From assembly GCF_002234675.1 (NCBI RefSeq), contig NC_019867.2, positions 29,563,166 to 29,627,165 on the forward strand: a DNA stretch of 64,000 bases. Reading direction: 5' to 3'. This document shows, piece by piece, positions 20,701 to 59,894 of the stretch; position 1 is the first letter of the stretch, and each line of letters begins with the position of its first letter. Under the pieces are notes generated by a model. It made no database searches and was not told the origin of the DNA. It saw only the letters and a list, made by a program, of their open reading frames with translations. This stretch comes from Oryzias latipes. Lineage: Eukaryota > Chordata > Actinopteri > Beloniformes > Adrianichthyidae. The position numbers and the translations under genes were made by a program.

Positions 20701-23700
20701 CATGCTGTCCGTCACTGGGTACAAATAAATGCATTATGGGTAGCTGTGGTGTCAGTTCCCCCCTCAGGCTACAGGTAAGATGAGTTCAGATTAGCACAAC
20801 AGGAAAGAATTTGAAAATACCCGATTTTATGATTTTTCTAAAAGGAGGGCGTGGTCATCTGCTGTGGCGTGGCCCAGAGGCCGTGTTCCTCTGACTGACC
20901 GGGATGAAGCCAAACCTGCAAACCCATCATTTGAGTTTTGGAATGGTAAACATTATTGTTCCCGTTGGTAATTTAGAAACTGCGCAGCAGAAACCCTACA
21001 TTCTGTTCTAGATTAAAGCTGCGGTCACACTGAACGTGAGTCCCGGGTCAGAGGCATTCCGTTTTGATGTTAAGTCAGCGTGCAGACCCGAGCTGGGGTC
21101 GAGGCGATCTGAAGGTTGCAGCAATCGGCCAGTCAACTAACCAATCAGGGGTTCAGTTTTGGCCCGTCACGTGTTAAAAACACGATCAGCGGGTGGAGTC
21201 TAAAACCAACATGGAGTAGAATCTGATCCTTCTCCTCCTGAACTTTATGATATGTTTTTATTTGTATGGAGGCAATACTAAAAACTGCCTCTAACTTTAT
21301 CTATGGACTAATGCAGGACAGCAAGTCGCCGAACGGATGAAAGTAGCGCTAAGAGCGCCGTCATTCAGACGCAGCTGCGGCAGCAGGAGTGAAGCTCAGC
21401 GCACTGGAGAGTCTCTGAATGACGTCATGGAGACGTGGAGACGCGGTTACCGATGCTTTTGTAGAGCTCTTCCCAATTAATAAACATCTCACATCATCCG
21501 TGTCTTCCACGCATTGTAATGAGATATACAGTCAATGCTTCCATGTAGCGATCAAGCTGAAACTTCTGGCTCCTCCCACACGTGGCGGGGGCATCAAGCT
21601 TATGAAGACATTTTTGGACAAGCATCCAGCAGCAAATGTTACGCGGTAAAGGAAAGGTGAAGGACGCAAACTGGATAAAAGAATTGGGTCTCAGCAGCAG
21701 AAGTTATTATGTGAATATATCAAAAGTTATTTCCACTAGACTTAGACAAAAATATTAACAGGGAACATATCATCCAAGCTTTTTTTTTTTAATTGAGGGT
21801 TAAGATGTTTATGAAACCATTCCTTCTTCATCAGCTGACAGGAAGCGTAATGAGGAGGGAGTGGATAATTAAGTGTTTATTTGAAAGCATGAAGCAGCTG
21901 TGATGATTAGGATGAAATCCTGTGCAGGTTACTCAATCTTAAAATAAGAAGTGTGACACTTTACTCTGCAGGAAAGCAGACCACTTGGGTGTTTGTGGTT
22001 CGAGTCCCTGCAGCCTCCTCACCTCCTTGATCTCGTCTTTGGTCTGCTGTAGTTTGTCTGGTTTGTTGGTGAACTGAAGTTTGGCCTCGGCTTCTCTCTT
22101 CTTCTGTAGCAGCATCTGACTGTCCTGCCATTTCTGCCACGTCTTCATGCGCTGGTCAAACACCCCCTGAACACACATGTATGGTCATTGTAAACCTGGT
22201 TTGGTGTCTTCTTCAGATGGAGACGTCCCCGTGAAGCACGTACCTTGACAGCGGTGATTAGGCGGACGTAGTCGCCCAGCAGCTCGGAGAAGAGGTAGAA
22301 GTCTGCGTTGGCCTGGTCCTGGTGCAGCTGGTCGATCTTCTCCTCCACCTCAGCCAGCTGGGACAGAGCTCGAGACAGGGCCGTGTGGTCCTCGCTGTTT
22401 CCCAGCATGGCCGCCGACTTGGCAAACTGTGCCGTGTTTACAGACAACTCTGCAAAAGAAGGAGGTCAAATCTGACCTTGTATGCTCTGAAAGAGTCTCC
22501 ATGTTGGCATCACCCTTCTCCTCGTGAGGCATAGAACCCAGAACTACTATTTAACCAAAGAACCCCACACCACAAAGCCATCGATCCAATCCCACCCCCG
22601 GTAGATATCTGACATAGGTCACACCTAAAAGTCTGAGCAGGCATACAATTGTAGCGTCTAAAAGTGTAAAGTTTGAAATAATAATAATACATTTGTTAGC
22701 CACCTTTCTAGGAACCCAAGGTCGCTGTACATAATAGTAAAAGTCAAAGCAATAAGATGTACAGTACAATATGCAGGAATGTCACACTATGGGGGTACAT
22801 ATGCACATTGGAAAAGGTGTGTTTTTAGTTTGTTGGTGAATTGTGAGAGAGAGCCAATGTTTTGGCGGTCAGGAGGTAGTGGATTCCAGAACCGGGGGGG
22901 CAGAGCAGCTGAAAGCTCTGCTCCCCATAGTCACGAGGCGAGCAGTGGGGACAACCAGATGGAGGGAGGAGGAGGATTTACGGGTACAGGTGCATGTGGC
23001 GACATGAACGAGATCCAACGAGTACGAGGGGGCAAGGCTGTGGATGGATTTAAGAGTTGGGAGAGGTATTTTATATGTAATTCTGTGTGTTATCGTTAGC
23101 CAGTGGAGCTGCTGCAGAACAGGTGTGATGTGATGGACAGAGGGTGTTTGACTGATAAATCTGGCAGCTGAGTTTTAAACATATTGCAGTTCAAAAAGAT
23201 GGGAGTTGCAGTAATCCAGGCGGGAAGTGACAAGACCATTCCACTGGTTTGAGAATGAGGACTGAGGGAAGGGCGAAGACGACGGATGCTGCGTTGGTGA
23301 AAATAGACAGATTGGGTGATGCTACTGATGAGTGAAGAGAAGGAGAGGGGGCTGTCGAAGATGACACCCAGACTATTAACCAGAGGAGAGGGGAAAATGG
23401 AGGAGTTTTCAAAAAGAATGGAGAGGTTCTGGATGCTGGTTATAATGTATTTAATGCCTATCAGGAGAAGTTTGGTTTTATAATAATTTAGTTTTGGGAA
23501 ATTTGCAGTAAACCTGGATTTTATTACAAGAAGGCAGTCGGGGAGGGAAGTGGGAGGAAGAGAGGAATTCAGCTTGGTGGAGATGTAGAGCTGGGTGTCA
23601 TCCGCTTAACAGTGGAAGTGAATCTTGTATATAGAAAAGAATTGGACCAAGAGGTAGAAGGTAAATGATAAGAAGCAAGGGTCCCGGGATAGAGCCCTGG

Positions 23701-29700: not shown

Positions 29701-32700
29701 AAGTCCAGTGGGAGCAGCAGTTTCCCTTTGTTGAGAAATTTAATAGACGTTTTATTTGACTGTGTGCAAAGTCTGTCTATAAAATCCAACACATAGTTCA
29801 CACTTTTCAATAACCTGGATAATAAATGAGGAAAAATATAACAAACAAGCAGAAAATATAAGGTCAGTGTACAAAAATATACCTTTAAGAATTCATTTAA
29901 AAAACTAATTTGAAAAAAGTTTACTCGAAATTTAATCTTTAATCTTCAGAAAACAAGGAAAATTTGAACAATTCCCTTTTCTAGGTGTACGTGTTTGTCC
30001 TTTATGAAATCACTTTTTAACAAACTAAGGTAAACATTGACGTGTTTTGGGAAGAATATGTGAAATTTTCTTACACTTTTAGTGTAAATTTACGATAAAC
30101 TGCAAATGATCAGAAAAGGCTTAAATAAAAAAAAAAAGGAATAAATTCTGTTGAATCCTGATGACTACAAAAAAATCCAATATGACTGGAGGGACGATTA
30201 TTAACGACTGGAAAATGATAGAATAAAAAGAATATAATTATATTTGTATTATTGTCTTAAAAAATGTATATATTATATTAATATAACCTGAATTGTTAAA
30301 TACATCAAAATAACTAAATACTAACAGAATCACAATACTTGATCAAAGTTAACTCCATTTTTGTTTCAATTTAGAGAAATGAAAAATGAAAGAAATAAAA
30401 CTTTGTAACCTCAAAGGTCTTCTCAGAACTTTAGCGTTTGCAGCTTCTAAAAGTTGTTTTTGCTTTAAAAGCTCATGAATTGACCTAACGTCTAACATAA
30501 AGAAATGATAAAAGCACTTCAGAAAGTGTGGACGTACACTAAATGTAAGTAGATAAAATCCCAACATTACATTTTTTTAAAGGTCAAAAGTCAATGTTTA
30601 TTGTATCTAAATGTGTAACTAGAAAGCTGTCATTTCAAACGTCTTGCTGTCATAAAAGTAAATGGCTAACAGACAAGAGAGGCGACGTGAATGCGCCGTT
30701 ACCTCATCAAAGGAAGAGTGGGTGAACATGTCGTCGTGGGCGTGGCCGATGCGAGGGCTGATGACTGAGATGGGCGGAGTGATGGGGGTGATGGCGGGGG
30801 AGGGTCCTTCAGATAACAAAACGTCTCTCTCTGGACTGTCCAGCGACACCTCCTCTGTGGCCTCTGCAACATACAAGAACGTCACCGTATGTTCCTAAGC
30901 AACACACAAGAACGTCACCGCGGGTTCCTTAGTAACACACAAGAACGTCACCGTATGTTCCTGAGCAACACAGGAGAACGTCAGCACGGGTTCCTGAGCA
31001 ACACACAAGAACGTCACCGTATGTTCCTGAGCAACACAGGAGAACGTCACCACGGGTTCCTGAGCAACACACAAGAACGTCATCGCAGGTTCCTGAGCAA
31101 CACACAAGAACGTCAACGTATGTTCCTGAGCAACACACGAGAACGTCACCACGGGTTCCTGAGAAACACACGAGAACGTCACCACGGGTTCCTTAGCAAC
31201 ACACGAGAACGTCACCAAAGTTTCCTGAGCAACACACAAAAACGTCACCGCAGGTTCCTGAGCAATACACGAGAACGTCACCGCAGGTTCCTGAGCAACA
31301 CACGAGAACGTCACCACGGGTTCCTGAGAAACACACGAGAACGTCACCACGGGTTCCTGAGCAACACACTAGAACATCACAGCACGTTCCTGAGCAACAC
31401 ACGAGAACGTCACCACGGGTTCCTGAGCAACACACGAGAACGTCACCGTATGTTCCTAAGCAACACACAAGAACGTCACCGCAGGTTCCTTGGCAACACA
31501 CAAGAACGTCACCTTATGTTCCTGAGCAACACAGGAGAACGTCAGCACGGGTTCCTGAGCAACACACAAGAACGTCATCGCAGGTTCCTGAGCAACACAC
31601 GAGAACGTCACCACGGGTTCCTGAGAAACACACGAGAACGTCACCGTGGGTTCCTTAGCAACACACGAGAACGTCACAGCAGGTTCCTGAGCAACACACG
31701 AGAACGTCACCACGGGTTCCTGAGCAACACACAAGAAAGTCACCACGGGTTCCTGAGCAACACACTAGAACATCACCGCACGTTCCTGAGCAACACACGA
31801 AAACGTCACCACGGGTTCCTGAGCAAACACACGAGAACGTCACCACGGGTTCCTGAGCAACACACAAGAATGTCACCAAAGGGTTCCTGAAGCAACACAC
31901 GAGAACGTCACCACGGGTATCTGAGCAACACACGAGAACGTCACCACGGGTTCCTTAGCAACACACAAGAAAGTGACCGCACGTTCCTGAGCAACACACA
32001 AGAACGTCACCGCACGTTCCTGAGCAACACACAAGAACGTCACCACGGGTTCCTGAGAAACACACAAGAACGTCACCGTGGGTTCCTTAGCAACACACGA
32101 GAACGTCACCGCAGGTTCCTGAGCAATACACGAAAACTTCACCACAAGTTCCTGAGCAACACACGAGAACGTCACCGCAGGTTCCTGAGCAACACACGAG
32201 AACGTCACCACGGGTTCCTGAGCAACACACAAGAAAGTCACCACGGGTTCCTGAGCAACACACTAGAACATCACCGCACGTTTTCTGAGCAACACACGAG
32301 AACGTCACCACGGGTTCCTGAGCAACACACGAGAACGTCACCGCACGTTCCTGAGCAACACACAAGAATGTCACCACGGGTTCCTGAGCAACACACGAGA
32401 ACGTCACCACGGGTTCCTTAGCAACACACAAGAAAAGTGACCGCACGTTCCTGAGCAACACACAAGAACGTCACCGCACGTTCCTGAGTAACACACAAGA
32501 ACGTCACCACGGGTTCCTGAGCAACACACGAGAACGTCACCGCACGTTCCTGAGCAACAAATGACAACGTCACCACGGGTTCCTTAGCAACACACAAGAA
32601 AGTCACCGCAAGTTCCTGAGCAACACACAAGAATGTCACCGCACGTTCCTGAGCAACACACAAGAACATCACCACGGGTTCCTGAGCAACACACGAGAAC

Positions 32701-35700
32701 GTCACCACGGGTTCCTTAGCAACACACAAGAAAGTGACCGCACGTTCCTGAGCAACACACAAGAACGTAACCGCACGTTCCTGAGCAACACACAAGAACG
32801 TCACCACGGGTTCCTGAGAAACACACGAGAACGTCACCGTGGGTTCCTTAGCAACACACGAGAACGTCACCAAAGGTTCCGGAGCAACACACAAAAACGT
32901 CACCGCAGGTTCCTGAGCAATACACGAAAACTTCACCACAAGTTCCTGAGCAACACACGAGAACGTCACCGCAGGTTCCTGAGCAACACACGAGAACGTC
33001 ACCACGGGTTCCTGAGCAACACACAATAAAGTCACCACGGGTTCCTGAACATCACACAAGAAAGTCACCACGGGTTCCTGAGCAACACACTAGAACATCA
33101 CCGCACGTTTCCTGAGCAACACACGAGAACGTCACCACAGGTTCCTGAGCAACACACGAGAACGTCACCGCACGTTCCTGAGCAACACACAAGAATGTCA
33201 CCACGGGTTCCTGAGATACACACGAGAACGTCACCACGGGTTCCTTAGCAACACACAAGAAAGTGACCGCAGGTTCCTGAGCAACACACAAGAACGTCAC
33301 CGCACGTTCCTGAGCAACACACAAGAACATCACCACGGGTTCCTGAGCAACACACGAGAACGTCACCGCACGTTCCTGAGCAACAAACGACAACGTCACC
33401 ACGGGTTCCTTAGCAACACACAAGAAAGTCACCGCACGTTCCTGAGCAACACACAAGAACGTCACCGCACGTTCCTGAGCAACACACAAGAACGTCACCA
33501 CGGGTTCCTGAGCAACACACGAGAACGTCACCGCACGTCCCTGGGAAACACACGAGTGTCACCATGGGTCCCTGAGCAACACACAAAAACGTCACCGCAG
33601 GTTCCTGAGCAACACACGAGAACGTCACCACGGGTTCCTGAGCAACACACAAGTTTGTCATCACGGGTTCCTGAGCAACACACTAGAACATTACCGCACG
33701 TTCCTGAGCAACACACGAGAACGTCACCACGGGTTCCTGAGCAACACACGAGAACGTCACCACGGGTTCCTGAAAAACACGCGAGAACGTAACCGCAGGT
33801 TCCTGAGCAACACACGAGAACGTCACCACGGGTTCCTGAGCAACACACGAGACAGCACCACGGGTTCCTGAGCAACACACCAAAACGTCACCGCAGGTTC
33901 CTGAGCAACACACGAGAACGTCACCACAGGTTCCTGAGCAACACACAAAAAGGTCACCGCAGGTTCCTGAGCAACACACGAAAACGTCACCGCATGTTCC
34001 TGAGTAACACACGACAACGTCACCACGGGTTCCTTAGCAACACACGACAACCTCACCACGGGTTCCTTAGCAACACACGAGAACGTCACCGCAGGTTCCA
34101 GAGCAACACACAAGAACGTCACCGCAGGTTCCTGAGCAACACAGAAGAACGTCACCGCACGTCCCTGAGCAACACACGAGAACATCACCACGGGTTCCTG
34201 AGCAACACACAAAAACGTCACCGCAGGATCCTGAGCAATACACGAGAACGTCACCGCACGTCCCTGAGCAACACACGAGAACGTCACCACGGGTTCCTGA
34301 GCAACACACGAGAACGTAACCGCAGGTTCCTGAGCAACACACGAGAACGTCACCACGGGTTCCTGAGCATCACACCAAAACGTCACCGCAGGTTCCTGAG
34401 CAACACACAAAAACGTCACCACGGGTTCCTGAGCACCACACAAGAATGTCACCACGGGTTCCTGAACAACACACTAGAACATTACCGCACGTTCCTGAGC
34501 AACACACGAGAACGTCACCACGGGTTCCTGAGCAACACACGAGAACGTCACCGTGTGTTCATTAGCAACACACAAGAACGTCACCACAGGATCCTGAGGA
34601 ACACAGGAGAATGTCACCACGGGTTCCTGAGCAACACACAAAAACGTCACCGCAGGTTCCTGAGCAACACACGAGAACGTCACCGAAGGTTCCTGAGCAA
34701 CACACGAGAACGTCACCACGGGTTCCTGAGCAACACACGAGACAGCACCACGGGTTCCTGAGCAACACACCAAAACGTCACCGCATGTTCCTGAGTAACA
34801 CACGACAACGTCACCACGGGTTCCTTAGCAACACACAACAACGTCACCGAAGGTTCCTGAGCAACACACGAAAACTTAACCACGGGTTCCTGAGCAACAC
34901 ACGAGACAGCACCACGGGTTCCTGAGCAACACACCAAAACGTCACCGCAGGTTCCTGAGCAACACACGAGAACGTCACCACAGGTTCCTGAGCAACACAC
35001 AAAAAGGTCACCGCAGGTTCCTGAGCAACACACGAAAACGTCACCGCATGTTCCTGAGTAACACACGACAACGTCACCACGGGTTCCTGAGCAACACACG
35101 ACAACGTCACCACGGGTTCCATAGCAACACACGAGAACGTCACCGCAGGTTCCAGAGCAACACACAAGAACGTCACCGCAGGTTCCTGAGCAACACACAA
35201 GAACGTCACCGCACGTCCCTGAGCAACACACGAGAACGTCACCACGGGTTCCTGAGCAACACACAAGAACGTCACCACGGGTTCTTGAGCAACACACGAG
35301 AACGTCACCGCAGGATCCTGAGCAACACACAAGAACGTCACCACGGGTTCCTGAGCAACACACAAGAACGTCACCGCACGTCCCTGAGCAACACACAAGA
35401 ACGTCACCACGGGTTCCTGAGCAACACAAGAGAACGTCACCACGGGTTCCTGAGCAACACACAAGAACGTCACCACGGGTTCCTGAGCAACACACAAGAA
35501 CGTCACCGCACGTCCCTGAGCAACACACGAGAACGTCACCACGGGTTCCTGAGCAACACACGAGAACGTCACCACGGGTTCCTGAGCAAAACACAAGAAC
35601 GTCACCGCAGGTTCCTGAGCTACACACGAGAACGTCACCACGGGTTCCTGAGCAAAACACAAGAACGTCACCGCAGGTTCCTGAGCAACACACGAGAACG

Positions 35701-38700
35701 TCACCACGGGTTCCTGAGCAAAACACAAGAACGTCACCGCAGGTTCCTGAGCTACACACGAGAACGTCACCGTAGGTTCCTGAGCAACACACAAGAACGT
35801 CACCGCACGTTCCTGAGCACCACACGAGAACCGCACAGCAGGTTCCTGAGCAACACACGAGAACGTCACCAAAGGTTCCTAAGCAACAAACGAGAACGGG
35901 GGGAGTATGAGAACCCCACAGGGATCTCCGGGTTACCTGCAAACAGATCCTCCGTGTCCTCATCAAACAGTGATTCCTGTTTCGGCCCATTTGACTTGGT
36001 GCTGATGTCCACAGCAGGCAGACTGGCTGGTTGAGACTGGAAACACAAACAACATTTGAGTGACATACTGTGCAGACAACAATAGAAAACAATCAAACCT
36101 CACATCAGAAACACAACAAAACAATCAGAGAAAAACCCAAAGACCAGAACCAGGAGCTTCAGGAACTAATGACTTTGGTTGGAACCATAAACCAGTTCTA
36201 ACACGCAGGGCTGCTTCACCCATAACCATTCTGTACAGATAAGAGTGTGTCAGGGCTCGACATAGCCATTTGTCCGCTGGCCCGGTCCTGTTTTTCGAGC
36301 AGTACGGACCACAAGACTTTATTTTTTACTTGTCCGCTCGGGCCACTAAAATATCTAACAATTAATACAATTTTCACCTTTTACAATAAAGTATATTTTT
36401 CGAAAACGTGTAGATTTACCTCGTCTTTATAATTCACTTTTTCTGCTAGTCCTGTGTTCAGACTTCAAGGGTTTCTATGGGAAACCTTTTATCACTCTTC
36501 TCCTTCTCTCCCGCCTGCACCGCGGCTGTCACTGCCGAGCACCACGCGGCACGTGCTCACTCAATTTTTTTTTCAAACTTTATTGAATGTAACAATTCAA
36601 TACTAAACAATGTTAAACAGCAACAACGAAGGAACAAGCCAGTGGGTTATTATTACATTTTAGGCAGATATATTTAAACTGACACACATATCAGCGCGCC
36701 CCCTGGTGGTTTTTCACCGCGATGATCATAAATCCAACACCGTCACTGAAGAGAGACTGAAGCATGTCAGAGATGTGGAAGACATGGCAGGAATAGATAG
36801 GAATATGTTAGTAGTTATTAATTAGTAGTATGGACAGCAAGATATTTAATGAATGCATTGAAGATGAAACTGTATGCACTAAGCTTTAAGCTGAATGTCA
36901 AAGAATCAAAGGCAACTCAAAATACCTGAATCTCAGACTCAAATGGAGTATAAGGTCAAACTACTTAATTTTGTTTTTCTTTACAACACTGTAAGCAGTA
37001 AGTATTTCTAGTTAGCTGAATGATCTCAGTAATTTAATTGTATTTAATTTTTCAATTATTTAATTTAATAAGGTAACTAAAGTAACTAAAAAGTAAATGT
37101 AACTTTGCAACAGTAACAAAAAGCAGAACCTTAAGGGCAAAAAAGTCAATAAAACTTCTTAACTATTGATTAGGAACAAATGTGAAATAGCAGTGATTAG
37201 AAGCAGCATGAAAACTTCTTAACTAGTGTTAACTACTACACTGCAGCGCTCTCTTCAAAACATCTGAAACAGACTAGAGCAGATTTAAGTTTGATATGCT
37301 CTATTTTTAGTCATTGAAAAGTGTATAAATAAGTGCTAGATGTCACCAGAATGCACCAAATTGCACCATATTAAAATTTTCCGGGGGGGCATGCCCCCGG
37401 ACCCCCCTAAAGTTGCAAGCACCTGCGGAGCGGCGGGTCTCGCTGTGCGCGGTGTCGGGCCAGTAACTTTCAAAAACTACTGGCCCTGTGGGCCAGTGCA
37501 AATTTCTGGGCTATGTCAACCCCTGTGTGTCCGCGTTAAACTTCACAATAAAAGCTTCTGTGTGCAGATGTTCTCAGATCCTGAAAGGACCTTCGCCTGC
37601 TTCAGTGAAAACCTCTGCTGGTTCCTCTGAAGAAGCAGAGAAGATGAAGGAAAACCCTGATCAGCAGGTGGAGGCCACAAAATATTATCGTGATGAATGT
37701 TCACGACTGGAGTCCAGGTGGTGGGGGTGATGGGGGTGTGGGGTGGGGTTAGCTGAGAGGACAGAAAGAGGAAAGAATGAACAAGAGGGAAGGAAGTGAG
37801 TGATGATAACAGGAACTTCCTCCCTCCTTACTCAGCAAACAGGTCAGGAAAGCACAGGCATCCATGCACACACATGTACACACACACACAAGCAGGCGCA
37901 CTTGCACACGCACACACGAAATGCGTCCATTCAAAAGCATCTTTCAGGAGAGCTTTTTATTCAACCAATTATTTCAAAACAAAAGCCTCTGACAAAAGAA
38001 TACAATTTTTACATTAACAATATCTAGAATGTTAAAAAAAGAAGTTGAACACATTTTTTTAATTGTTATTATAAAGTTAAAATAATACTGAAAATCTGAC
38101 TAATGACGAAAAGGAAACTAGGACATAGTTTCTGCAGTTCCCTTTGTTAAATCACTTTGACTCAAGGTGGCTGCTAACAAATGTTTTTCCAGATCAGGCA
38201 TGATGATGCATGGCGTGTATCTGTCAGGTGAGGTCCAACACCTGCAGACCTGAGGATGTGAGGCTACCAAAGACGCACCATGAGACATCCAGCCCCCGTG
38301 TTCTGTTCCCATGTGGGACAAATACCAGAAACTCCTGCAATTCCTCAAATGACCACTAGATGCTGGAGTCAGTTTTCCTTAAAGCTCATGCTCGTGTGTC
38401 ACTATGGAGGGTTTTTTTGATTGGCAGGTGAGTGGACCCAAAGGTGAACTAAGCGAACACTCTTCATTCAATTTTCTTTCTCTCTCTCGATCTTTTCATT
38501 TACTCCAGTCAATATGGCCGCCCCACCTCACCGCTCAATGAATAATGTCAGAAGTCTGAGTCATTTTCATCATACATGTGTATGTGTCTCATTTATGTGT
38601 CAGGTGCACCAATGATCAAATACCCGAACAACTAAATCTGTAACCGATCTCCTGAGGAAGCAGCTGGGAGACGTTTGGGTCTGCTTTGGTGTGTTTGAAC

Positions 38701-43249: not shown

Positions 43250-46200
43250 GTATAATCTGTTTTCATCATCTGGTCCAGACTAAATGTTGGACCCAGTTTA
43301 TGTCTGCGGGAGATTTTTAGAAAGAACTGCTGAGTCATATAAAGGCGGAACGCTGAATCACGTCTGATGAAGGTTTGCAATGAAACATGATGTAGGCAAA
43401 GCTGCCTGGAGACGGACGAACGATAAAGCCTCTAGCTTTTGTAGTTACACTTTTGTTTCCACTGAAATGAAAGTGTCCTGCTTCCTCATTTTGAGGTTGA
43501 AATTCGTTCAAAACGTATAAACAGCAGAGGTTAACAATTCATTTGAACGAAGATTCAATTCATGTCATAATTTGCGCCAATCCGATTCATGGTCGATTCT
43601 GAAGGATCCGATTCTCTGACCTAAGCTGGATCCGCAACATCTTTAGCTAAAACTTCAACAGTGAGACTCAGATAGAAATTCCTGCTACTGAACAGTGAAG
43701 TTTTCCAGATTCCTTGTATTTCTTACAAAGTAATCAAGTGTGGCGGCTGGGTAGCTCGGTTAAACCAGGGTTCGATTCCCGGAGGGGAATGAGCAATGGT
43801 GGCAATTACCATATCAATGTCTGAGCAATTAACATCACCCAGTGAGGGTCCTTAGGCAAGACCCTTAACGCTACTACTGCCTCCCGAGCCCGGTGTACCG
43901 CTCCCGGAAGATGGATCAAATGCGGAGAAAATAATTTTCCTTCGTGGGATAAATACAGTGTAATAAAAAAAAAATGAAATATGTGTCCAAACAAACAATA
44001 ATACCGTACTGGTAACTGTAGAGTAACCATAAAGATCATGAAGACATAGAATTCAATAAGAAATTCTAAACTGAACTAACTTAACAGACTAAACTAAACG
44101 GGGCGTCTTCTTCTTCTTAGACTCTCCTTCACACATGAAGGAGGGATCCAGAACTATTAAGTTCTCTAACTCTACAACTACACCTTTAAATAATCCAGCA
44201 GACAGGCTTCATCCAGATTTCCTGGTCCTGGTCTGGATCAGGGTCCGCTTGGGTGAATTCAGACTGAAAATGTGTTCTGGATTACCGGTAAACAAACTCC
44301 GGTTCACTTTAAGCGGCACATCGGGTCCGCTTAAAGTGAACCGGAGTTTGTTGACCAGTCTGAATACAGCCGATGGTTTCCTGAAGTTCAGCCCACTGCT
44401 GTTTCTCCACACGGATGGGATTCGGTTCTACCTCAGACAGATCGAGCCGGTTAGATGGTAGGAAATCGATTAAAAGGATTCATTGTTACACCCCAGCAAA
44501 TGTACTCAGGGAATGACGCAAAGCAACGTTAAAAAGTTCAGAAGTGCCTTCATTACAAGTTTTTTAGCTCCATGAAATGGAGCAGTAAGATTCTAGTTTC
44601 AGCCAGAAATTTGCATTTCTTAGTTTTAATAATATTTAAGAGAAGTTTGTTAATAAACAGAAAAACGGCATCAGTAAACAGGAAGCAGCTCTGCGTCTAA
44701 CAGGAGTCCCCCCCCCCCCCCCCCCCATAGAAGATGGTTTACTTCTGGCTCAAACCAAAGTCAATTCAGTCGCCATGTTGTAGCCAGACAACATCAGGAA
44801 GCAGTGATTGGTCCAAGTCGGCCTGAGTCAATGCTTTTATGTTAACCACTCTCACCAATCAGGAGTCAGCTTGTTGGAAGATGTCCCAGGGGGGGGTCAC
44901 TCCGTCCAGTCAATATTTAGAACGGGCTTTAGGCTTTCTGTGTTTTTAGGCTTTCTTCTTGTTAAATGAGGGAATTCTGCAGAAACATCATCTTCATCAC
45001 ATTCATCTTCATCACAGACGTCTTAGCTAAAGAACCTTTTAGCAGCAGGAACCATACCTCATTAATACCCCTGCCACGCCCCCTCCCCAGGCCTGAAGCA
45101 GAAGGAACAGGCCGTGCAGGCGGAGCTCCCGGCGTCGGAGTTTGGCGTCGGCACGGATCCAGACTGGGAAAGCCGGGTGGAGGCCGTGTTTGAGCGCAGC
45201 GCCCAGCTGGCGGATGAGTACGAGCAGCTGATGAAGAAGCAGGCCGAGGAAGAGGAGGCAGAGGAAAGACACAGACAGCATCTGCAGAAAAAGATGGAGG
45301 GGGCCGCCCAGCAGCACCAGGTGAGCCTGCCCAATCTGTAAGCCCCGCCCCCCTGAACGGGTCTGAGTGGGTAAAACTGAGCTGCTGTTCTTAGGCTCTT
45401 CTGGAAAAACTGGAATCTCTGAGGGTGAAGCTGCAGCTCAACAACCCCAAGGCCACCAGGAAGAGCTTCTTAACCAAGAAACAGGAAATGATGTCAGAGA
45501 AGGCCAAAGCTCAGGAGGAGAGGGACAGGTGAGACATCAGCATCGCCTCCACCTCCTGAGGGGAGCAGTCCGTCTCCAGGAGAAACGGGGAGCAGCAGAA
45601 GCTTCTCCAAACATTTAGGGAGATTCTGGGGACGGCAATAAACGGAAGAACGTTCCTTCTTCTAATCAGGTCAGCAAAGGAGCAGCAGGAGAGCGACAGA
45701 AAGCTGGCGGCGCTCGCAGACGAGCAGAGGGAGGAGCAGAGGAGGTGGCAGGAGGAGCTGGAGGAGCTGAGGAAGGAGATGGAGCGCGTGAGGAAGGAGG
45801 CGGAGGAGGCCCAGCTGCAGGCCCTGAAGGACGAGGTGTCGGTGGTGGAGAAGCAGAGAGACGTGGCGCTGACCCGCATCGAGGAGTGGCTGAAGGAGGT
45901 GCGGGCCGCGCCGATCGGGTAACTTCTGCCAGGTCTGCGGGAGCTCAGCAGCACTGTCCCCCTTACCCGTCCAGGTTAAGCAGTACCTGAGTGTCCTGCG
46001 GGCCGAGTTCCCCGAGAAGTTCCCCCAGGAGCTGGTCCGGTGGGAGAAGAAGGAGGTTCTGGTCCAGAAGAACAAGGCGGACCTGCAGAGCCGCTTCCAG
46101 GAGCTTCTGCAGCAGCTGCAGCAGGGGCGGGAGCTGGAGTCCCTCCCCCAAATCAACATGCCCAACCTGCCTCAGGTTCCCATGGTAAGGCTGCCGGTCC

Positions 46201-46966
46201 CGGTCCTGGTTCTGGTTCTGGTCCGGTTCAGAGCTGACGCTGTGATGGGTGTGTCTTCCAACAGGCTGAACTCCGCTTCCACCAGATCGTCCAGAAGCTG
46301 CTGCGGCCTCAGCTGGCCCCCCCTCCTAAGCCTGCCAGTTCCCCGCTGCCTCCTCAGGCCCCCCCTCACTACTACCAGCCGCGGCCCCGTCATCCACAGC
46401 CCCCCCAGTACCAAGCCCCGCCCTCCCCTCGCTTCTTCCAGCCCCCCGGTTATCCCCCGTTTGGCGAGCCTGGCGCTCCCTTTATGGTGCCCCGCCCTCC
46501 CATCTTGTACCCACCCCCACAGGTTCAGACCCTGCACTCGCTGGCGCCCTCCCCTCCGCCCCCCGCTGCCGCCGCCCCCACAGCTTCCGGTCCGGCGGGT
46601 AAGCTGGACAAGCTGCTGGAGAAGCTGGGGGGGCGGTTCCCGCAGTGCAGCCGGGCGCAGCTGACGTCTCTGCTGCAGCAGGTGAAGAGCGCCCGCGGGA
46701 CGCTGGCGGGGATGTCCCACGACGAGCTCATGGAGCAGGTGGGCCAGCGGCTGGCCCGCGGCGAGAGGACGGCCCCGGGGCCCATCCAGAGGCCGACCCC
46801 CTCCCTGCAGAGGGCCCCCCGGAAGCTCTGCCTCATGTGCCAGAACCACGTGGAGCCGGAGAGCAGACACCCCCTGAGCTGCTCCCACACCATCCACAGA
46901 GACTGCATCCAGATGTGGCTGAGGTCCAGCAAGAACAACTCCTGCCCCTTCTGCCCCGCCAAGTGA
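43117..46966 (+). CDS. rnf214: RING finger protein 214-like (6 coding exons, 545 aa)
   Basis: Exons: 43117-43249, 45091-45320, 45395-45528, 45670-45898, 45975-46184, 46265-46966. All introns are GT-AG and the total is 1638 nt. The product begins [14 protein letters not shown] and has a long Glu/Lys/Arg-rich coiled coil (about 45-240), a Pro-rich segment (about 320-420), the RNF214-type block [19 protein letters not shown] (from about 426), and a C-terminal RING. The RING ligands are C501, C504, C518, H520, H523, C526, C539 and C542 ([24 protein letters not shown]). RING proteins of this class are likely E3 ubiquitin ligases; the substrate is unknown. Human RNF214 is longer (about 700 aa) and not linked to SNX2, so this may be a paralogue rather than the strict orthologue. 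It is divergent from snx2. Confidence 0.88.
43741..43980 (+). repeat. tRNA-derived SINE (rnf214-like intron 1)
   Basis: GGCTGGGTAGCTCGGTTAAA carries the A-box and CCAGGGTTCGATTCCCGG the B-box. The body has GGTCCTTAGGCAAGACCCTT and the 3' end CGTGGGATAAATACAGTGTA followed by a poly-A run. Confidence 0.75.
44291..44352. repeat. Perfect 26-bp inverted repeat (hairpin) in rnf214-like intron 1
   Basis: Arms 44291-44316 and 44327-44352 are exact reverse complements, separated by a 10-nt loop. The core arm motif is CTCCGGTTCACTTTAAGCGG. Beyond the arms, ATTCAGACTG (about 44257) and CAGTCTGAAT (about 44357) extend the symmetry. Confidence 0.9.
44730..44940. mobile_element. MITE family R2, partial copy (rnf214-like intron 1)
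   Basis: Contains AATTCAGTCGCCATGTTG, GTCCAAGTCGGCCTGAGTCA and CTCACCAATCAGGAGTC, matching the full-length copy at 12687-13205. It lies downstream of a poly-C tract. Confidence 0.6.
45091..45320 (+). CDS. rnf214: rnf214-like exon 2, residues 45-121 (coiled coil)
   Basis: Acceptor CCTCCCCAG|GCCTG, donor CACCAG|GTGAGC. It encodes [20 protein letters not shown] and a charged helix rich in Glu and Lys. Confidence 0.88.
45395..45528 (+). CDS. rnf214: rnf214-like exon 3, residues 122-166 (coiled coil)
   Basis: Acceptor GTTCTTAG|GCTCTT, donor GACAG|GTGAGA. It encodes [17 protein letters not shown] and [16 protein letters not shown]. Confidence 0.88.
45670..45898 (+). CDS. rnf214: rnf214-like exon 4, residues 166-242 (coiled coil)
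   Basis: Acceptor TAATCAG|GTCAGC, donor GAG|GTGCGG. It encodes [19 protein letters not shown], a long E/R/K-rich helix, and RIEEWLKE. Confidence 0.88.
45975..46184 (+). CDS. rnf214: rnf214-like exon 5, residues 243-312
   Basis: Acceptor CGTCCAG|GTTAAG, donor CCCATG|GTAAGG, 70 codons. It encodes [20 protein letters not shown] and the RNF214-like [15 protein letters not shown]. Confidence 0.9.
46265..46966 (+). CDS. rnf214: rnf214-like exon 6 (terminal), residues 313-545 with RING
   Basis: Acceptor TTCCAACAG|GCTGAA. It holds the Pro/Tyr-rich low-complexity region, the conserved [19 protein letters not shown] helical block, and the C-terminal C3H2C3-type RING ending CPFCPAK before TGA. Confidence 0.95.
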
Positions 46967-53461: not shown

Positions 53462-54437
53462 TCAAACGTTACTGCTTTTGCTCTTGCTCTTGGCTCCGCC
53501 CCCTGGGCTGCTTTTGCCCTCTGACTTCCTGCTGGGGGAGCCCTGGCAGGTGGCTGGTTTGGGGGCGGAGCCTGCCTGAGTATTGTTGTTGTTGTGGTTG
53601 GAATTCCCACTCAGCGTCTCCATGATGGAGCGGAACGCCCCGAACGGCCGCTTGCTTTCGGAGCCCCCCGCTGAGGTGCCCCCCCGCCCCTGCGGGCCTT
53701 TGGAAGGCTCTGCTTCCTGATTGGAGCTCTTGTGGACCTGCTCATCAAAGGTGACCCTCAGCTTGAGGTTCTGGGACGTTTTCCTGCGTGATGAGGGCGA
53801 CTTTAGGGCGCTCTTGGGGCTGGTTGCGACTTTCTGTCCGTCATGCGCGTCGTTGGGTGTCTCCGGAGTTTTCCCGTCAGCAGCTTCGGGGTCGCTGGAG
53901 GTGGGGGAGGAGTTAACGCCGATGCTGTCTGCAGACTTGGATCCGTTCAGAGAGAAGGCCAGCCTCCTCTCTGCTGACGAGGAGGGGGCAGAGAGCTGCT
54001 TCTTCGTCACAAGGTGGAGGGAGTCTGGTCCGGGTTCTTCCTCTGCGATCGGCAGGTGGGTGGGCCTATCCGGCCTCTGCGTGTTTGGGTGCGCCCCCCC
54101 CTGGTTCTTGCCCTCCTCGGGTGGATACCCATCCGAGTCGGACTCGCTTAAGGAGCGCTGCATGATCTGCTTCAGCCTGGCCAGTTTCAGCTCCCGCCTC
54201 TCCACCAGTCCGAGCCTGCGGCCCCCAGCGGGTCCGGGGCCCTCTCTTCCAAGGCCTGCCGGGGGGGGCAGCCTCTCCCGGGGGCACAGGGAGTCAGGCA
54301 CGTCCTTTCCCAGCAGCTGACGCAGCACAGAATCGGGCCCCACCCCTCCCTGACGAACTGACCAGTGGGTGTCGCCGGGCGTCCCCTCCGCTGTCAGCAT
54401 CATCTCTGGCCACGCCTCCACTGAGGGTTGATGGGAG
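53462..54437 (-). CDS. sncaip: sncaip terminal exon, residues 585-909
   Basis: Acceptor AACTCCAG|CTCCCA, TGA stop at 53462-53464. Conserved blocks: LRQLLGKD (623-630), RRELKLARLKQIMQRSLSES (665-684), KVATSPKSALKSPSSRRKTS (787-806), LRVTFDE (811-817) and KRPFGAFRSIMETLSG (847-862). The region between them is Ser/Pro-rich and probably disordered. Confidence 0.96.
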
Positions 54438-57400
54438 CTGGAGTTCAAAGAGGGAGACGAGGATGGATCAGACAGTAAATGGATCCCTGGACATCGTTCA
54501 ACTGAAGTGTTTTGTCAAGACTGTAGAAGAGAAAAACGACTGAGAATCACCTCCGACCTTTGACCTTTCAGATCTGTTTCACACAAAGAAGTGAGACAGA
54601 AACTGGAAATAAACTGGTTCTAGTGTTTTTGGTCGGTTCAGATAACTAATTTTAAGTATTGTTACTCTGATATAAACTTATTCCAAGAACTATTTATGAA
54701 AGTAAGCAATTAACGAAGCTTGGCTGTTTTTTCCCTCCATAGTTTTCACGTTCTGTGTTTTCTTCTCATTCAAAACGGATTTTCAAAGTAAAGTAAAGTA
54801 AAGCGATGGGACAGATGATGCTGTGTTCACAAACACAATTGGCTTATTAAATTTGCGTCCTCTGCCTTTATTCAGACGGGCTTCCGATTCACGGCTGGAC
54901 ACTTGTGTTCATACATCTGCCGCTCCGCCCCATATGGGCGGAGCTACTGCAAAAGTGTTCAGCCTCATCGTTACATTGCGGATGACACAGATGATGTTCG
55001 GAGATCAGATTTATTTATTTTGAAGAGCTCTACAAAAGCACCGGTAATCGCGTCTCCATGTCTGGGTTCAGAGATCAATCAGAGGCGGTGAGCTTCACCG
55101 TCTCCTGCAGGAGCTGCGTCTGAATGACGGACGCTTTCAGCGCTACTTCCGTCTCTCTGTGACCCAGTTTGATGACTTGCTGTCCCACATTAGTCCGAGG
55201 AGGGGAAAAAATAAAATTACAGGAACTTTTCATTATTGACTCGATGCAAATAAGACAAATATTATAAAGTCCAGGAGGAAACCGATCAGATTCACCTCCA
55301 TGTTGGTTTTGGACTCCACCCACTGCTGAAGACATCAAGACGTCACGAACCAACGCTGGCATCACCAGTGAGTCCTAAAGTTGTGAAGTTTAGTCTGTGG
55401 TGTGTTTGTGGTACCTGGGAGATCTGGATGGCGTCCCCTCTCCCTTGTTGGGGTCCATCAGTCTCTGGAGTTGCTTCTGTAAGCTGACCCTGTCTGCCGC
55501 CTGCCTGCAAAGCAACGCCAGAGGAGCTCAAGGCGCCTTCACTGCTTCTGCATCGTCAAAGACACTTTTCCCTCCGTCCACCAGCTCTGGACAGGTTTCC
55601 TGACCCAAACACACGACAACTTACTCATTGAGCTGCTTGGTGAGTTTGACCACCTGCGAGGCCAGCGACATGCATGTTTCCACGACGACCAGGTACCGGG
55701 CACACGTGGTGTGGCCCTGCCGCTCAGCACTCTGGGAGGGCCGCTCGCTCTGCTGGTTCTGGACCGTCACGTTGGAGCCGTACTCCACCAGAGTCTGCGC
55801 ACAAGTGAGCTCAGATCAGAACCAGGAGGAGTCTGACGAGAGCTGATGAAGCTTGCAAAGACTCAGTTCACTCGTTCTTTCCGCCAGTTTGAGTTTTACA
55901 GCGATTGCTTCCACACTTCCTGTTTGGTTTACTCTCAGAGTAGAGGTTTTGTCTGGGCATGAGATTCATGGACAGGAAGGATGTCATGGCTTCATGAGCG
56001 AGACGGGATCATGGGAAAAATGCAGTAACAACGTATGGAGCTTTGTTTATGACAGAAACTCCTCAAAGTCTGAAGCATTTTTAAAGTGACTGGCTCTTTA
56101 TTTAGTTATTTTCAAAATAAAAGCAAAGCCGCGGATCACAGTACTGAAGTGCACTCGGCCTAGTTTTTGTGGTAACTTCTTCCAGCTGTAGTTACACCCG
56201 GAAAACCATCCTGCTGATCCTGAACATCCATAGAATCTCATTTACAAGTCTTGGTGCTGCTCTCCTTATTCCTCTTTTAGTCAACAAAACAAAAAGGTGA
56301 AAAACTTCTCAGTCGTGGTACAAAAAGTCTCTACATGTTATTTGATGGATTTGAAATGAATTTTGTTTGGACAAATGAATCTTTGCCTGATACTGACGTG
56401 TTCGTCACTACAGGATGTTCAGCTCACCTGTATGCAGGTGAGGTGTCCGTACTGAGCTGCCACATGGACGGCCGTGTTCCCGTTCTGATCCACTTCGTCC
56501 AGAGAGATGGCCTGTTCCTGCATGAACTGAAGCAGCCACAGCAGGACTTTCTCCTGGACACACAGACAGACAGACGGATGCTGAGGAGGGGGGCTCCTTC
56601 AAAACAGCAGTTGACGCGCACGCAGGGACCAGTAAACACATCATCTACATTAACTTACCTTCTTCTTTCCGTTCCTATTCCCCTACAGGTAGCACACTAG
56701 GTTGCCGACTCATCATCCTCACGCATACATTTACACGAATCACACACGACGCCATCATTAGAGTTCATTTGTTTACCTTGAAGTGGTCATCGACACACCG
56801 GGTCATGTGACGCATCGGTCTTTGTTTGTATTTATTTTTATTAAGGGTTATTGGAATTTCTTTGTAATGAACACAGAATGTTTCTTTGTATGAAACTGTT
56901 TGTTTCTGAATGTTTATGTTTTTGAACAATGTAAAACTCTTTTCCTTCTTCCTTTGGACTGATGGAGAGCTACGCCCTGGAGGAGGGGCTTACCATTTTA
57001 AAGAGGACCTGTTACAGGTGTCAGAGTGGAGTGTGGGAGTCTAGGTGGAGAAACATATGTTGGTTGGCCTTTGTGGAGCAGTTGTTGTGCTCTGTTCTTG
57101 CATTAAACACAGGAATACTTTCACCTTGGCGCCTCTGCCTTTATTGACCCACGACAGGCGTCTTTGTGTGAAATCATTTCATGTGTGTGAAGGATAAAGT
57201 CCTTGACAGGAACAGATTTCTGGGTTCTGATTTGACGTTGGATCGTACCTGACCGTATCGAGCCGCATAATGAATGAGGCTGGGATGTTCTCGGCTGCAA
57301 CTGAGCTCGGCGATGGCCTCCGTCTCGCTCACCATCCACCGCACACACTCCAGATGACCGTTCTGCACACAGTCGGGGTGAATTCAGTCAGGATGATGCT

Positions 57401-59894
57401 TCCTCTCTGAGCCAATCTCCACTCGTGTTTGCATCAACACAATTTTGGGCGCAGACCTGGCACACCGTGACAGGAACTGACCTTGACCCCCAGGCCGGCG
57501 GGCGTCAGCTGCTGGCTGTTGCGCTCGTTCAGGCTGTCCTCCCCCATCAGAGAGGTGAGATGCTGCAGACAGTCGGCGTGGCCCTGGGAGGCGGAGACGT
57601 GCAGGAGGTTGTTTCCATCCTCGTCCCTGATCAGTTCCAGGTTGTCTGCCGCCAGGTGAGGCTGAGGAGGAGAAGGGGGGGGGGGGGGGGATGCAGGTGA
57701 GGAAGGCAGCGCTGAGGACGCCTGTTAATAAACAGTGAGGGTGTGACTGACCAGCAGTGAGATCTGCCCCTCCCTGACGATGTTGATGATGTTCTGCTTC
57801 TTTTTGGTCTCCTCATCCACCTCCCCTCCTGCTATTCCAAAGCCTCTCAGTGCCACTGCTCCACTTCCAGCACTAGGGGTCCTCACCTTGGTGCTGTCTT
57901 GCCTGCTCAAGCTGCAGCCCGGCAGGGGGAAGACCAGTCCTGACCCCCCCGGAGGATCCATGGGGGGTCTCTGGGAGTCCGGGAAGACGCGAGCAGACAG
58001 CAGCTTGTCTGGAAACGAGTCCGATTAGTGACTTTCTGTGTTTACGTGGGAAGAGCGGAGAGGTTGAGGCCCCACCTGCATCTGAGAAGGAGGCGAGGGA
58101 GGAGGACAGAGGCTCCGGCTGGTAACCCCCCCCACCTGGAGAACGGTTGAGGAGGTGGAGGTCTGGATCCATGGACCTGGACTTCCGTAGATCTGACCAC
58201 TTCAGCGGAGACAGAACACAGAACTGGAGGAAAACAGAGACAGCACAGGTTTAAGACCCCCCCCCCCATGTTTTACACCCATTATTGTGTAGGTGGAGGT
58301 GGGGCGTGTGTGTTTGGGCGGGTTGAAACAGACTAACTTTCTGACAGAGGACTCACCTGCGTCTGCGAGCTACTGCCCAAACTCACAGGCTCATTATGGG
58401 GCAGACCGGAGCTCTTCAGGACCCCCCCTCGACTCCTCTCCAGCGTGCCCCCACCCGCATTACCCCCCATCACAGATCGCTTGTCGAGGGGGGCTCGAGG
58501 CAGTGTGGACACGTGCTGGCTGGACTTGATATAAGGCACGTCCAGGATCTCATCCATGTCCAGGTCGTAGTGTTCCAGCTCCCCGAACAGAGCCTGGGGG
58601 CCGCCCCCCTCCCCCATGCTGCTGCTGGGCCCCTTCACCTTCATCCCAGACCCATCCAGCGGTGTGGGGGGGTTGGAGTGCTTGACAGAGGTGGGGCCAT
58701 CTTTGCCGAGCTCCTCCTGCTCCCCCAGCGCCTGGTCCTTCCCCTCAGAGTCCGAGTCTGTGGTTTCGGGCTGGTGTTTGAGGGGGGACACCCTCTTCAC
58801 CGGCCGAAACTTACTGTGGACCTCAGCCAGCCCCCCCGGTTTGATCCCCCCACCGCCGTGTGAGGAGACGCTGCGGCCCCAGCTGATGGGCGGAGCTGCG
58901 GGAGGAAAACAGGTGAGTGTGTGAGGCGGTGAGCGCCAAGGGAAGAGAGGCAGGATCAAACACACCTGCTCTGTCCTCGGCCGGCACATCGCTCCTGCGG
59001 GACAGCGCAGGGATGCTCTTCAGGGAGGAGACGGCGTACTGCGGGACAACGGGGGGTGCGAGCAGTGAGACCCTGAGCTCATCATATAAACACCAAGCTG
59101 CAGGAATTAAACGGGCGAGGAGAAACCGCTTCAACCCTAGTGACCCTTCCTGTGACCCCGCTATGATGTCATTTCCTGTCTGCACGGTCATAAGAACACA
59201 AGTGTTGTGTGCAAATCCCTTCACGACTCACAACATATCGCACTACATAGTGCGTTTGACTTTTTGTAGTGCTTGTTTGGATCTACAATTCGAAAATCGA
59301 GTGTCTCTGCGAAAAAACTAGTGTGCATCGATGCTCACTGGATTAGCGAATATAGACCACAATGCATTGCGTTTTGGCCAAAAGAATGTATTTAAATGTT
59401 TTTTTTTAATAAACCAACCATTTAACCTTCAGAAGATAGTGGATTCATAAATGGTCATCGCAAAACCTCTTTAACAAACAATTTCAACTTCGTGAAATTG
59501 ATGACATCATCATCACTGTTAAAAAAACAAAAAAGTAGTGACTGAATTGCTTTTAAAAGTATATAGAAAAGTATAACTACAAAAATCTCTTAACTACGAC
59601 CACCTGCTGCACGCCCGTAGAAAAAATGTGCATGAACATTTTCTCTCTACGGGCTCACCGAGTTGTCTACGACTGAAGTTTTGTGCGAGCCCCCTGTGTG
59701 CCCCCCCCCACGGGTTTGACAGCATGTATCCACCCATAAGAGCAGCTGGGACTAAGGTTTAAGAAAAGCCCATTGAGGTAGAAAGGTGTGGGGAAGACGC
59801 CGGTTGAGTTTGTGTCGTTTCTGCTCGAGATACTGACCACTGAATCATCAGAGAAGTCGATCTCATCCAGGTCCAGGTACTCAGGAGGCTCCAT
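53462..59894 (-). CDS. sncaip: Synphilin-1 (11 coding exons, 909 aa)
   Basis: Exons (5' to 3' on the minus strand): 59894-59838, 59038-58966, 58895-58357, 58223-58076, 58008-57752, 57661-57482, 57362-57249, 56553-56428, 55794-55625, 55504-55415, 54437-53462. All introns are GT-AG and the total is 2730 nt. The product starts MEPPEYLDLDEIDFSDD. It has KFRPVKRVSPLKHQPET and GELEHYDLDMDEILDVPYI, then ankyrin repeats (about 365-545), a coiled coil (about 545-580) and conserved C-terminal blocks (LARLKQIMQRSLSESDSD, KRPFGAFRSIMETLSG). Synphilin-1 is a cytoplasmic scaffold that binds alpha-synuclein and is ubiquitinated by parkin and SIAH. Human synphilin-1 is 919 aa, so this copy is full length. 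The gene spans only 6.4 kb from ATG to stop. Confidence 0.97.
55090..55200 (+). pseudogene. PIF/Harbinger transposase (HARBI1-like) fragment in sncaip intron 10
   Basis: The plus strand encodes ELHRLLQELRLNDGRFQRYF then RLSVTQFDDLLSHISPR, 37 codons matching the N-terminal part of HARBI1-like nucleases. Neither the preceding nor the following transposase continues in frame, so only a relic remains. It is antisense to sncaip. Confidence 0.75.
55415..55504 (-). CDS. sncaip: sncaip exon, residues 555-585 (coiled coil)
   Basis: Acceptor TTTGCAG|GCAGGC, donor CCCAG|GTACCA. It encodes EQAADRVSLQKQLQRLMD, matching the synphilin-1 coiled coil that contacts alpha-synuclein, then a short Ser/Pro stretch. 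Confidence 0.92.
55625..55794 (-). CDS. sncaip: sncaip exon, residues 499-555 (ankyrin to coiled coil)
   Basis: Acceptor TGCGCAG|ACTCTG, donor AATGA|GTAAGT. It encodes TLVEYGSNVTVQNQQ, SAERQGHTTCARYLVVVET and SQVVKLTKQLN. Confidence 0.95.
56428..56553 (-). CDS. sncaip: sncaip exon, residues 457-498 (ankyrin)
   Basis: Acceptor GTGTCCAG|GAGAAA, donor CAG|GTGAGC, 42 codons. It encodes EKVLLWLLQFMQEQAISLDE and GNTAVHVAAQYGHLTCIQ. Confidence 0.95.
57249..57362 (-). CDS. sncaip: sncaip exon, residues 419-456 (ankyrin)
   Basis: Acceptor GTGTGCAG|AACGGT, donor CAG|GTACGA. It encodes NGHLECVRWMVSETEAIAEL and SLIHYAARYGQ. Confidence 0.96.
57482..57661 (-). CDS. sncaip: sncaip exon, residues 359-418 (ankyrin)
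   Basis: Acceptor CTCCTCAG|CCTCAC, donor AAG|GTCAGT, exactly 60 codons. It encodes PHLAADNLELIRDEDGNNLL, HVSASQGHADCLQHL and LTPAGLGVK, the first ankyrin repeats. A poly-C tract lies just upstream of the acceptor on the transcribed strand. Confidence 0.95.
57752..58008 (-). CDS. sncaip: sncaip exon, residues 273-358
   Basis: Acceptor TTTCCAG|ACAAGC, donor CTG|GTCAGT. It encodes KKKQNIINIVREGQISLL, which leads into the ankyrin region. Confidence 0.94.
58076..58223 (-). CDS. sncaip: sncaip exon, residues 224-273
   Basis: Acceptor CCTCCAG|TTCTGT, donor TGCAG|GTGGGG. It encodes FCVLSPLKWSDLRKSRSM. This exon lies in a different frame from the long overlapping ORFs there, and phase agreement on both sides fixes it. 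Confidence 0.92.
58357..58895 (-). CDS. sncaip: sncaip exon, residues 44-223
   Basis: Acceptor TCCCGCAG|CTCCGC, donor CAG|GTGAGT. It encodes SKFRPVKRVSPLKHQPETT and GELEHYDLDMDEILDVPYIK, both signatures of synphilin-1, with a Pro/Ser/Gly-rich stretch between. Confidence 0.96.
58966..59038 (-). CDS. sncaip: sncaip exon, residues 20-44
   Basis: Acceptor TCCCGCAG|TACGCC, donor GCAG|GTGTGT. It encodes YAVSSLKSIPALSRRSDVPA, matching the synphilin-1 SLKTIPELCRR region. Confidence 0.92.
59235..59490 (-). mobile_element. Family R1 repeat, copy 4 (sncaip intron 1)
   Basis: ATAGACCACAATGCATTGCG at about 59353, with GATCTACAATTCGAAAATCG upstream and CACTACATAGTG near its left end. It lies between the first two sncaip coding exons. 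Confidence 0.5.

Follow-up and report, generated by a model that had tools for sequence, protein, structure and literature searches.

Intron 2 of medaka snx2 consists almost entirely of a 33-bp minisatellite, and its acceptor is the terminal unit of that array minus two bases, such that the likeness of the splice site to the repeat is one of identity by position. The array probably grew from the intron's own 3′ end, starting from an intron of about 90 nt, with exon definition keeping the last AG as the site of splicing. The first-pass annotation of this DNA had noted that the repeat unit resembles the 3′ splice site of the intron; the relation is a stronger one, as the real acceptor lies inside the last unit of the array.

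Results

The snx2 gene lies on the minus strand of the 64,000-nucleotide stretch of DNA analyzed here (the window), where a tblastn query with human SNX2 matches its exons in order. When joined, exons 1–3 encode an SNX2-like product that begins MADSIRDPP. Specifically, exon 2 (35937–36036, minus strand, 100 nt) ends with ...DLFA plus a G, in phase 1, and exon 3 (30703–30863, minus strand, 161 nt) is purine-rich across its first 60 nt; both were placed by tblastn and exon joining. Intron 2, which lies between them (30864–35936, minus strand, 5,073 nt), is an ordinary U2-type intron in having GT–AG ends and a frame-keeping join. On the minus strand it terminates GGTGACGTTCTTGTATGTTG/CAG, with exon 3 starting at plus-strand position 30863. 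The functional acceptor AG (30864–30865, minus strand) was assigned by reading frame, as joining exon 2 to exon 3 here yields an in-frame, SNX2-like protein.

Other features of the window include an SNCAIP-like gene next to snx2 (53462–59894, minus strand; tblastn with human SNCAIP). Open frames at 45066–46966 (plus strand) encode a coiled coil and a RING-like sequence (CLMCQNH...CPFCP) and perhaps belong to an RNF214-type gene, and an open frame beginning ADDTQLYIS (23096–23605, minus strand) resembles part of the reverse transcriptase of a non-LTR retrotransposon. With respect to known RNA families, there were no Rfam matches at gathering score within the window.

The minisatellite (30866–35898, minus strand), delimited by TRF and by wrap-around segmentation, comprises 152.5 copies of a unit that reads GGAACCCGTGGTGACGTTCTCGTGTGTTGCTCA on the minus strand. 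Given these limits and those of the intron, it accounts for approximately 99% of intron 2, spanning from about 39 nt past the donor to the last 2 nt. Segmentation gave 154 segments, 141 of exactly 33 nt, and the unit tallies that follow cover these 141 with the other 13 omitted. TGAC is present in 123 of the 141 units and CA stands at the end of 120, and in 137 the final A follows C, T or A and completes an AG with the next unit. The sequence GTTCTYGTNTGTTGC is common to both ends of the array. Upstream of the array, the donor GTAACC and the roughly 39-nt leader that ends in a run of C (35898–35936, minus strand) lie beyond clear unit homology. The C run of the leader, followed by TTCTCGTTTGTTGCTTAG, forms an acceptor-like site of its own 58 nt past the donor, with a score of 8.7 by the 19-acceptor matrix described below.

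At the other end, the terminal unit (30864–30895, minus strand) carries the functional 3′ end, consisting of a branch-point-like TGAC (A at 30882, or −19), a T/G-rich tract and TTGCAG. Because the array extends to the last 2 nt of the intron, it is this unit that supplies the branch-point-like site and the pyrimidine tract of the real acceptor, whose TTGCAG differs by 2 nt from the TTGCTCAG found in units. The TGAC about 20 nt ahead of a CAG described in the first-pass annotation is borne out at the real site, and TGAC recurs in most of the units tallied above. By eye, the acceptor-proximal units (30866–31520, minus strand) alternate an ATAC variant with other types, and the variants of units 133–135 resemble those of units 150–152, which suggests a larger duplicated block.

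Searches of the genome located the unit in this intron. A 301-base DNA query returned at least 31 matches, all 31 of them in this intron, and the unit pattern returned at least 38, with 38 of 38 inside snx2 intron 2; these counts are lower bounds, as the searches, which covered 734,051,031 bases in 25 contigs, skip common words. A dispersed repeat is unsupported, since all matches listed genome-wide fall in this one intron. Tandem repeats are given as 1.7% of the medaka sequence (PMC2688266), and minisatellites as such are therefore ordinary in this species.

To what extent the units resemble working splice sites was assessed with acceptor matrices trained on true acceptors from snx2 and SNCAIP (19), to which those of snx1 were then added (33); the training sets are small (19, 32 and 33), and matrices were used rather than a MaxEnt-type model. 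We scored 160 other AGs of intron 2, leaving out one leader AG that is too near the donor. The real acceptor scores 6.2 by the 19-acceptor matrix and is exceeded by 120 of these 160 decoys. It is likewise outscored by 127 of 160 with a textbook matrix and by 123 of 160 with a 32-acceptor matrix confined to intron bases. The corresponding number is 25 of 160 with a 33-acceptor matrix that takes in exon bases and paralogous exons, which we trust less because the exon 3 acceptor of the snx1 paralogue, along with exons that start similarly, is in its training set. Of the 160, 137 or 146 (by one or the other of two matrices) score at or above the 10th percentile for true acceptors, close to the figure of about 150 decoys given in the first-pass annotation.

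In terms of controls, 132 AGs lie above the true-acceptor floor as compared with 27.2 ± 4.2 in dinucleotide shuffles of the intron (0 of 200 shuffles reach this number), a test in which the same unit enters over and over. Taken as a single event and compared with tandemized shuffles or genomic 33-mers, the unit yields p between 0.014 and 0.093 by matrix and null, and its acceptor-likeness is then modestly beyond chance. The earlier expectation that units would outscore shuffled sequence holds for the intron as a whole and modestly for the unit counted once. Acceptor-grade AGs occur at 27–29 per kb in the intron versus 8.5–10.5 in the rest of the minus strand. Close to the splice site, the last 200 nt hold 5 decoys (maximum of 4 among 33 other acceptors), the last 500 nt hold 13 (maximum of 11) and the last 1,000 nt hold 26 (mean of 10.2, maximum of 33).

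Decoy strength showed no gradient along the intron (rho −0.01, p 0.89), and the idea that decoys weaken towards the real acceptor was rejected on this basis. The two nearest decoys do score 0.1 and 5.7 versus 6.2 for the real site by the 19-acceptor matrix, a difference that is not firm, because the textbook matrix places the nearest decoy (5.8) above the real site (5.3).

On contig C6, a snx1 paralogue is interrupted at the same codon, in the same phase and ahead of the same exon start (CAG/AGGCCACAG) by an intron of 202 nt, and for a second snx1 paralogue, on contig C3, a matching donor side only was found. The position shared with the snx1 paralogue implies that the intron predates the SNX1/SNX2 split and that the array grew inside it; a recently gained intron of tandem-duplication origin is ruled out by the same observation. 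The homologous snx1 intron on contig C6 has an ordinary pyrimidine-rich acceptor. The ancestral snx2 intron 2 would have been short, roughly 90 nt (5073 minus 151 × 33), a length that combines arithmetic with inference, as a few units carry indels. Approximately 90 nt is a plausible length for a short fish intron.

In the sequence of events that we favor, the 3′ stretch of this short intron, which held the branch-point-like site and pyrimidine tract and continued as far as the acceptor, would have been duplicated in tandem, and copies would have spread by slippage or unequal exchange until the intron was filled. The last copy, still abutting the exon, would have kept the role of functional acceptor, leaving some 130–145 earlier copies as acceptor-grade decoys. 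The array meets the acceptor without intervening unique sequence and, because tandem duplication copies DNA without removing the flank, an array that touches the acceptor most simply began there. The direction of growth is reconstructed from one assembly and should be taken as conditional on it. The earlier proposal of growth from the intron end thus gains from the contact of the array with the acceptor, from a unit that combines a branch-point-like TGAC with an acceptor-grade CAG and from units that score like true acceptors, whereas the range of p for the unit as one event, the flat profile of decoy strength, the dissimilar start of exon 3 (p 0.11–0.23) and a count of 26 decoys in the last 1,000 nt that falls inside the spread seen at 33 other acceptors pull the other way.

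An alternative is that an unrelated minisatellite expanded inside the intron, that the original 3′ end was lost by deletion, and that the last unit was then captured as acceptor. The 2-nt departure of the real site from the units would fit such a history, as would the observation that most units outscore the real acceptor with three of the four matrices. In addition, approximately 3–9% of the 33-mers in the window score as well when tandemized, and a random unit can therefore be acceptor-like. Capture, however, needs an extra deletion that ended within 2–3 nt of the exon with splicing surviving throughout, and we consider it conceivable but unlikely. As for other sources of the unit, no significant similarity to it was detected by alignment in the first 40 or 60 nt of exon 3 (p 0.11–0.23) or in the last 40 nt of exon 2 (p 0.11). 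The leader aligns with p 0.08, and the exon 2 end together with the leader is marginally similar (p 0.017–0.023). Taken together, these alignments (p 0.017–0.23) are insufficient to trace the unit to exon 3 or to the donor side of the intron.

The 3′ end of the intron is also distinguished by its predicted structure. Folding places the last three units in a 98-nt hairpin with 37 pairs (30864–30961, minus strand; −42.4 kcal/mol). The last 100 nt of the intron fold to −42.2 kcal/mol (z −5.3, 0 of 200 shuffles), the next z values being −2.7 among 33 other true acceptors and, at the lowest, −2.6 among 25 sampled array windows. This terminal window is the most stable of the 1,638 100-nt windows of the intron, a rank that varies with length (214 of 1,648 at 70 nt, 70 of 1,628 at 130 nt and 11 of 1,616 at 165 nt). 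Within a 461-nt context the 37 pairs have a mean probability of 0.97. An interior 200-nt fold of the array is ordinary (z +1.1), and the array as a whole is therefore not unusually structured.

Sequence variation among the units contributes to this predicted stability. The last three units fold to −26.5 kcal/mol when set to consensus versus −42.4 kcal/mol as they stand, and among their 16 substitutions relative to consensus units, 9 stabilize the hairpin, 5 destabilize it and 2 are neutral. Its stability is reached by 0.17% of random three-unit draws, and by 1.6% of draws in which two random units are combined with the real last unit. The predicted stem starts immediately after the CAG of the decoy at −97 and extends to the CAG of the real site, and the decoys at −64 (CUAAG) and −31 (CUUAG), with AGs at 30928–30929 and 30895–30896, pair with each other in it.

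Burial of the two nearest decoys would leave only the terminal AG exposed, and the array end may in principle have been shaped into a splice-site selector through base changes that strengthened the hairpin. We hold this as a minority reading, and a rather doubtful one, because the hairpin was noticed after the fact. Moreover, the branch-point-like A in the TGAC of the last unit is also paired in the predicted stem, and the G of the real AG is itself predicted to pair (0.9) once 30 nt of exon are included in the fold, both of which count against a simple masking role. A selector would work only if the branch point lay 5′ of the hairpin or the hairpin opened. Were it true, an intron swamped by copies of its own acceptor would have escaped through RNA structure.

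With respect to how the last AG may be chosen, acceptors abound in the array while donors and purine-rich motifs are scarce, such that exon definition should favor the last AG. Just 2 of the 829 GTs in the array at least equal the exon 3 donor, and donors of that strength or better occur at 0.39 per kb in the intron versus 1.73 elsewhere on the minus strand; the donor matrix was a general one rather than trained on these genes, and 13 snx2 donors score 1.2–7.6 on it. Purine hexamers are densest at the start of exon 3, where the opening 60 nt hold 13.3 per 100 nt; the corresponding densities are 5.0 for the entire exon and 0.35 for the intron. Exon 2 also has few of them (1.0 per 100 nt), which makes purine content a crude proxy for enhancers in this argument. 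Only the last AG adjoins an exon that has both a purine-rich start resembling an enhancer and a donor downstream, and exon definition may select it for this reason. Recursive splicing at ratchet AG/GT sites was rejected, as units read CAG/GAAC; AGGT occurs twice in the 5,073 nt of intron 2, at neither instance at the consensus unit junction.

Use of a decoy with the remaining intron kept leads to a stop in 160 of 160 cases (158 within the array, 2 from exon 3 on), and full retention of intron 2 gives a computed stop after 89 codons. Leaky decoy use would be expected to cause a frameshift and a premature stop and, given that stop, would mostly appear as lost mRNA, the decoy transcripts presumably being removed by nonsense-mediated decay. 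The stops from all 160 decoys, along with a density of acceptor-grade sites roughly threefold that of the remaining strand, could also be read to mean that the array has been kept for a function, namely as a hub for U2AF and branch-point binding that tunes snx2 output via decoy splicing and decay. We regard this as very improbable, in that almost any intronic decoy is expected to give a premature stop, the 33-nt period sets nearly all units in one frame, and the flat profile of decoy strength noted above gives no sign of position-dependent tuning. That the minisatellite is simply T/G-rich and unrelated to the splice site, its acceptor-likeness being a by-product of composition, draws on the many TGTG-rich true acceptors in these introns, on decoys that are common throughout (8.5–10.5 per kb outside the array) and on another acceptor with 33 decoys within its last 1,000 nt, but we give it very little credence, as the array holds the functional acceptor's own tract and stops within 2–3 nt of the exon.

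Discussion

What singles out one AG as the 3′ splice site when many others resemble it is a long-standing question, and snx2 intron 2 offers a natural test, with an acceptor-grade module of branch-point-like site, tract and AG present some 130–145 times and the last copy alone beside the exon. If splicing is accurate here, the deciding influence must come from exon context or terminal structure, prevailing over upstream copies whose scores are equal or better. Acceptor-containing tandem arrays were not found among the literature matches listed, which covered few subscription journals.

Partial parallels are nonetheless available. In yeast, a hairpin between the branch site and the 3′ splice site masks near AGs. 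The predicted end structure of snx2 likewise buries nearer AGs; it differs in that its stem would bury the branch-point-like A as well, and in being a predicted, vertebrate case.

Among human repeats, the units of the CBS VNTR may act as extra splice sites, and the splice-site repeat of ABCA7 has been linked to Alzheimer's disease. The 31-bp CBS VNTR is given as c.1444_1467+7(16_21) (PMC2630376). It is similar in size to the snx2 unit, with coordinates that span an exon end and the first intron bases, and differs from it in lying on the donor side, in having 16–21 copies and in being partly coding. The VNTR of ABCA7 intron 18 has a 25-bp unit in which the donor GT forms the first bases, ranges from 12 to approximately 427 units, has been reported to cause a frameshift when one unit is retained through a repeated donor, and shows increasing exon 19 skipping with length (PMC5954066).

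The snx2 array is of the same general kind as these repeats, being built of tandem units of tens of bp (33 bp × 152.5) and holding the TGAC, tract and TTGC of the acceptor in its last unit. The ABCA7 and snx2 arrays are both intronic, directly abut an exon and include splice-site bases. The ABCA7 array overlaps a donor, whereas that of snx2 overlaps an acceptor with its branch-point region and pyrimidine tract; the snx2 array also fills nearly the whole intron, unlike that of ABCA7, and a splicing effect has been reported for ABCA7 whereas the snx2 case is built from sequence. If growth from the intron's own 3′ end is indeed how the snx2 array arose, minisatellites can originate in the tails of introns, which would mirror the donor-side repeat of ABCA7.
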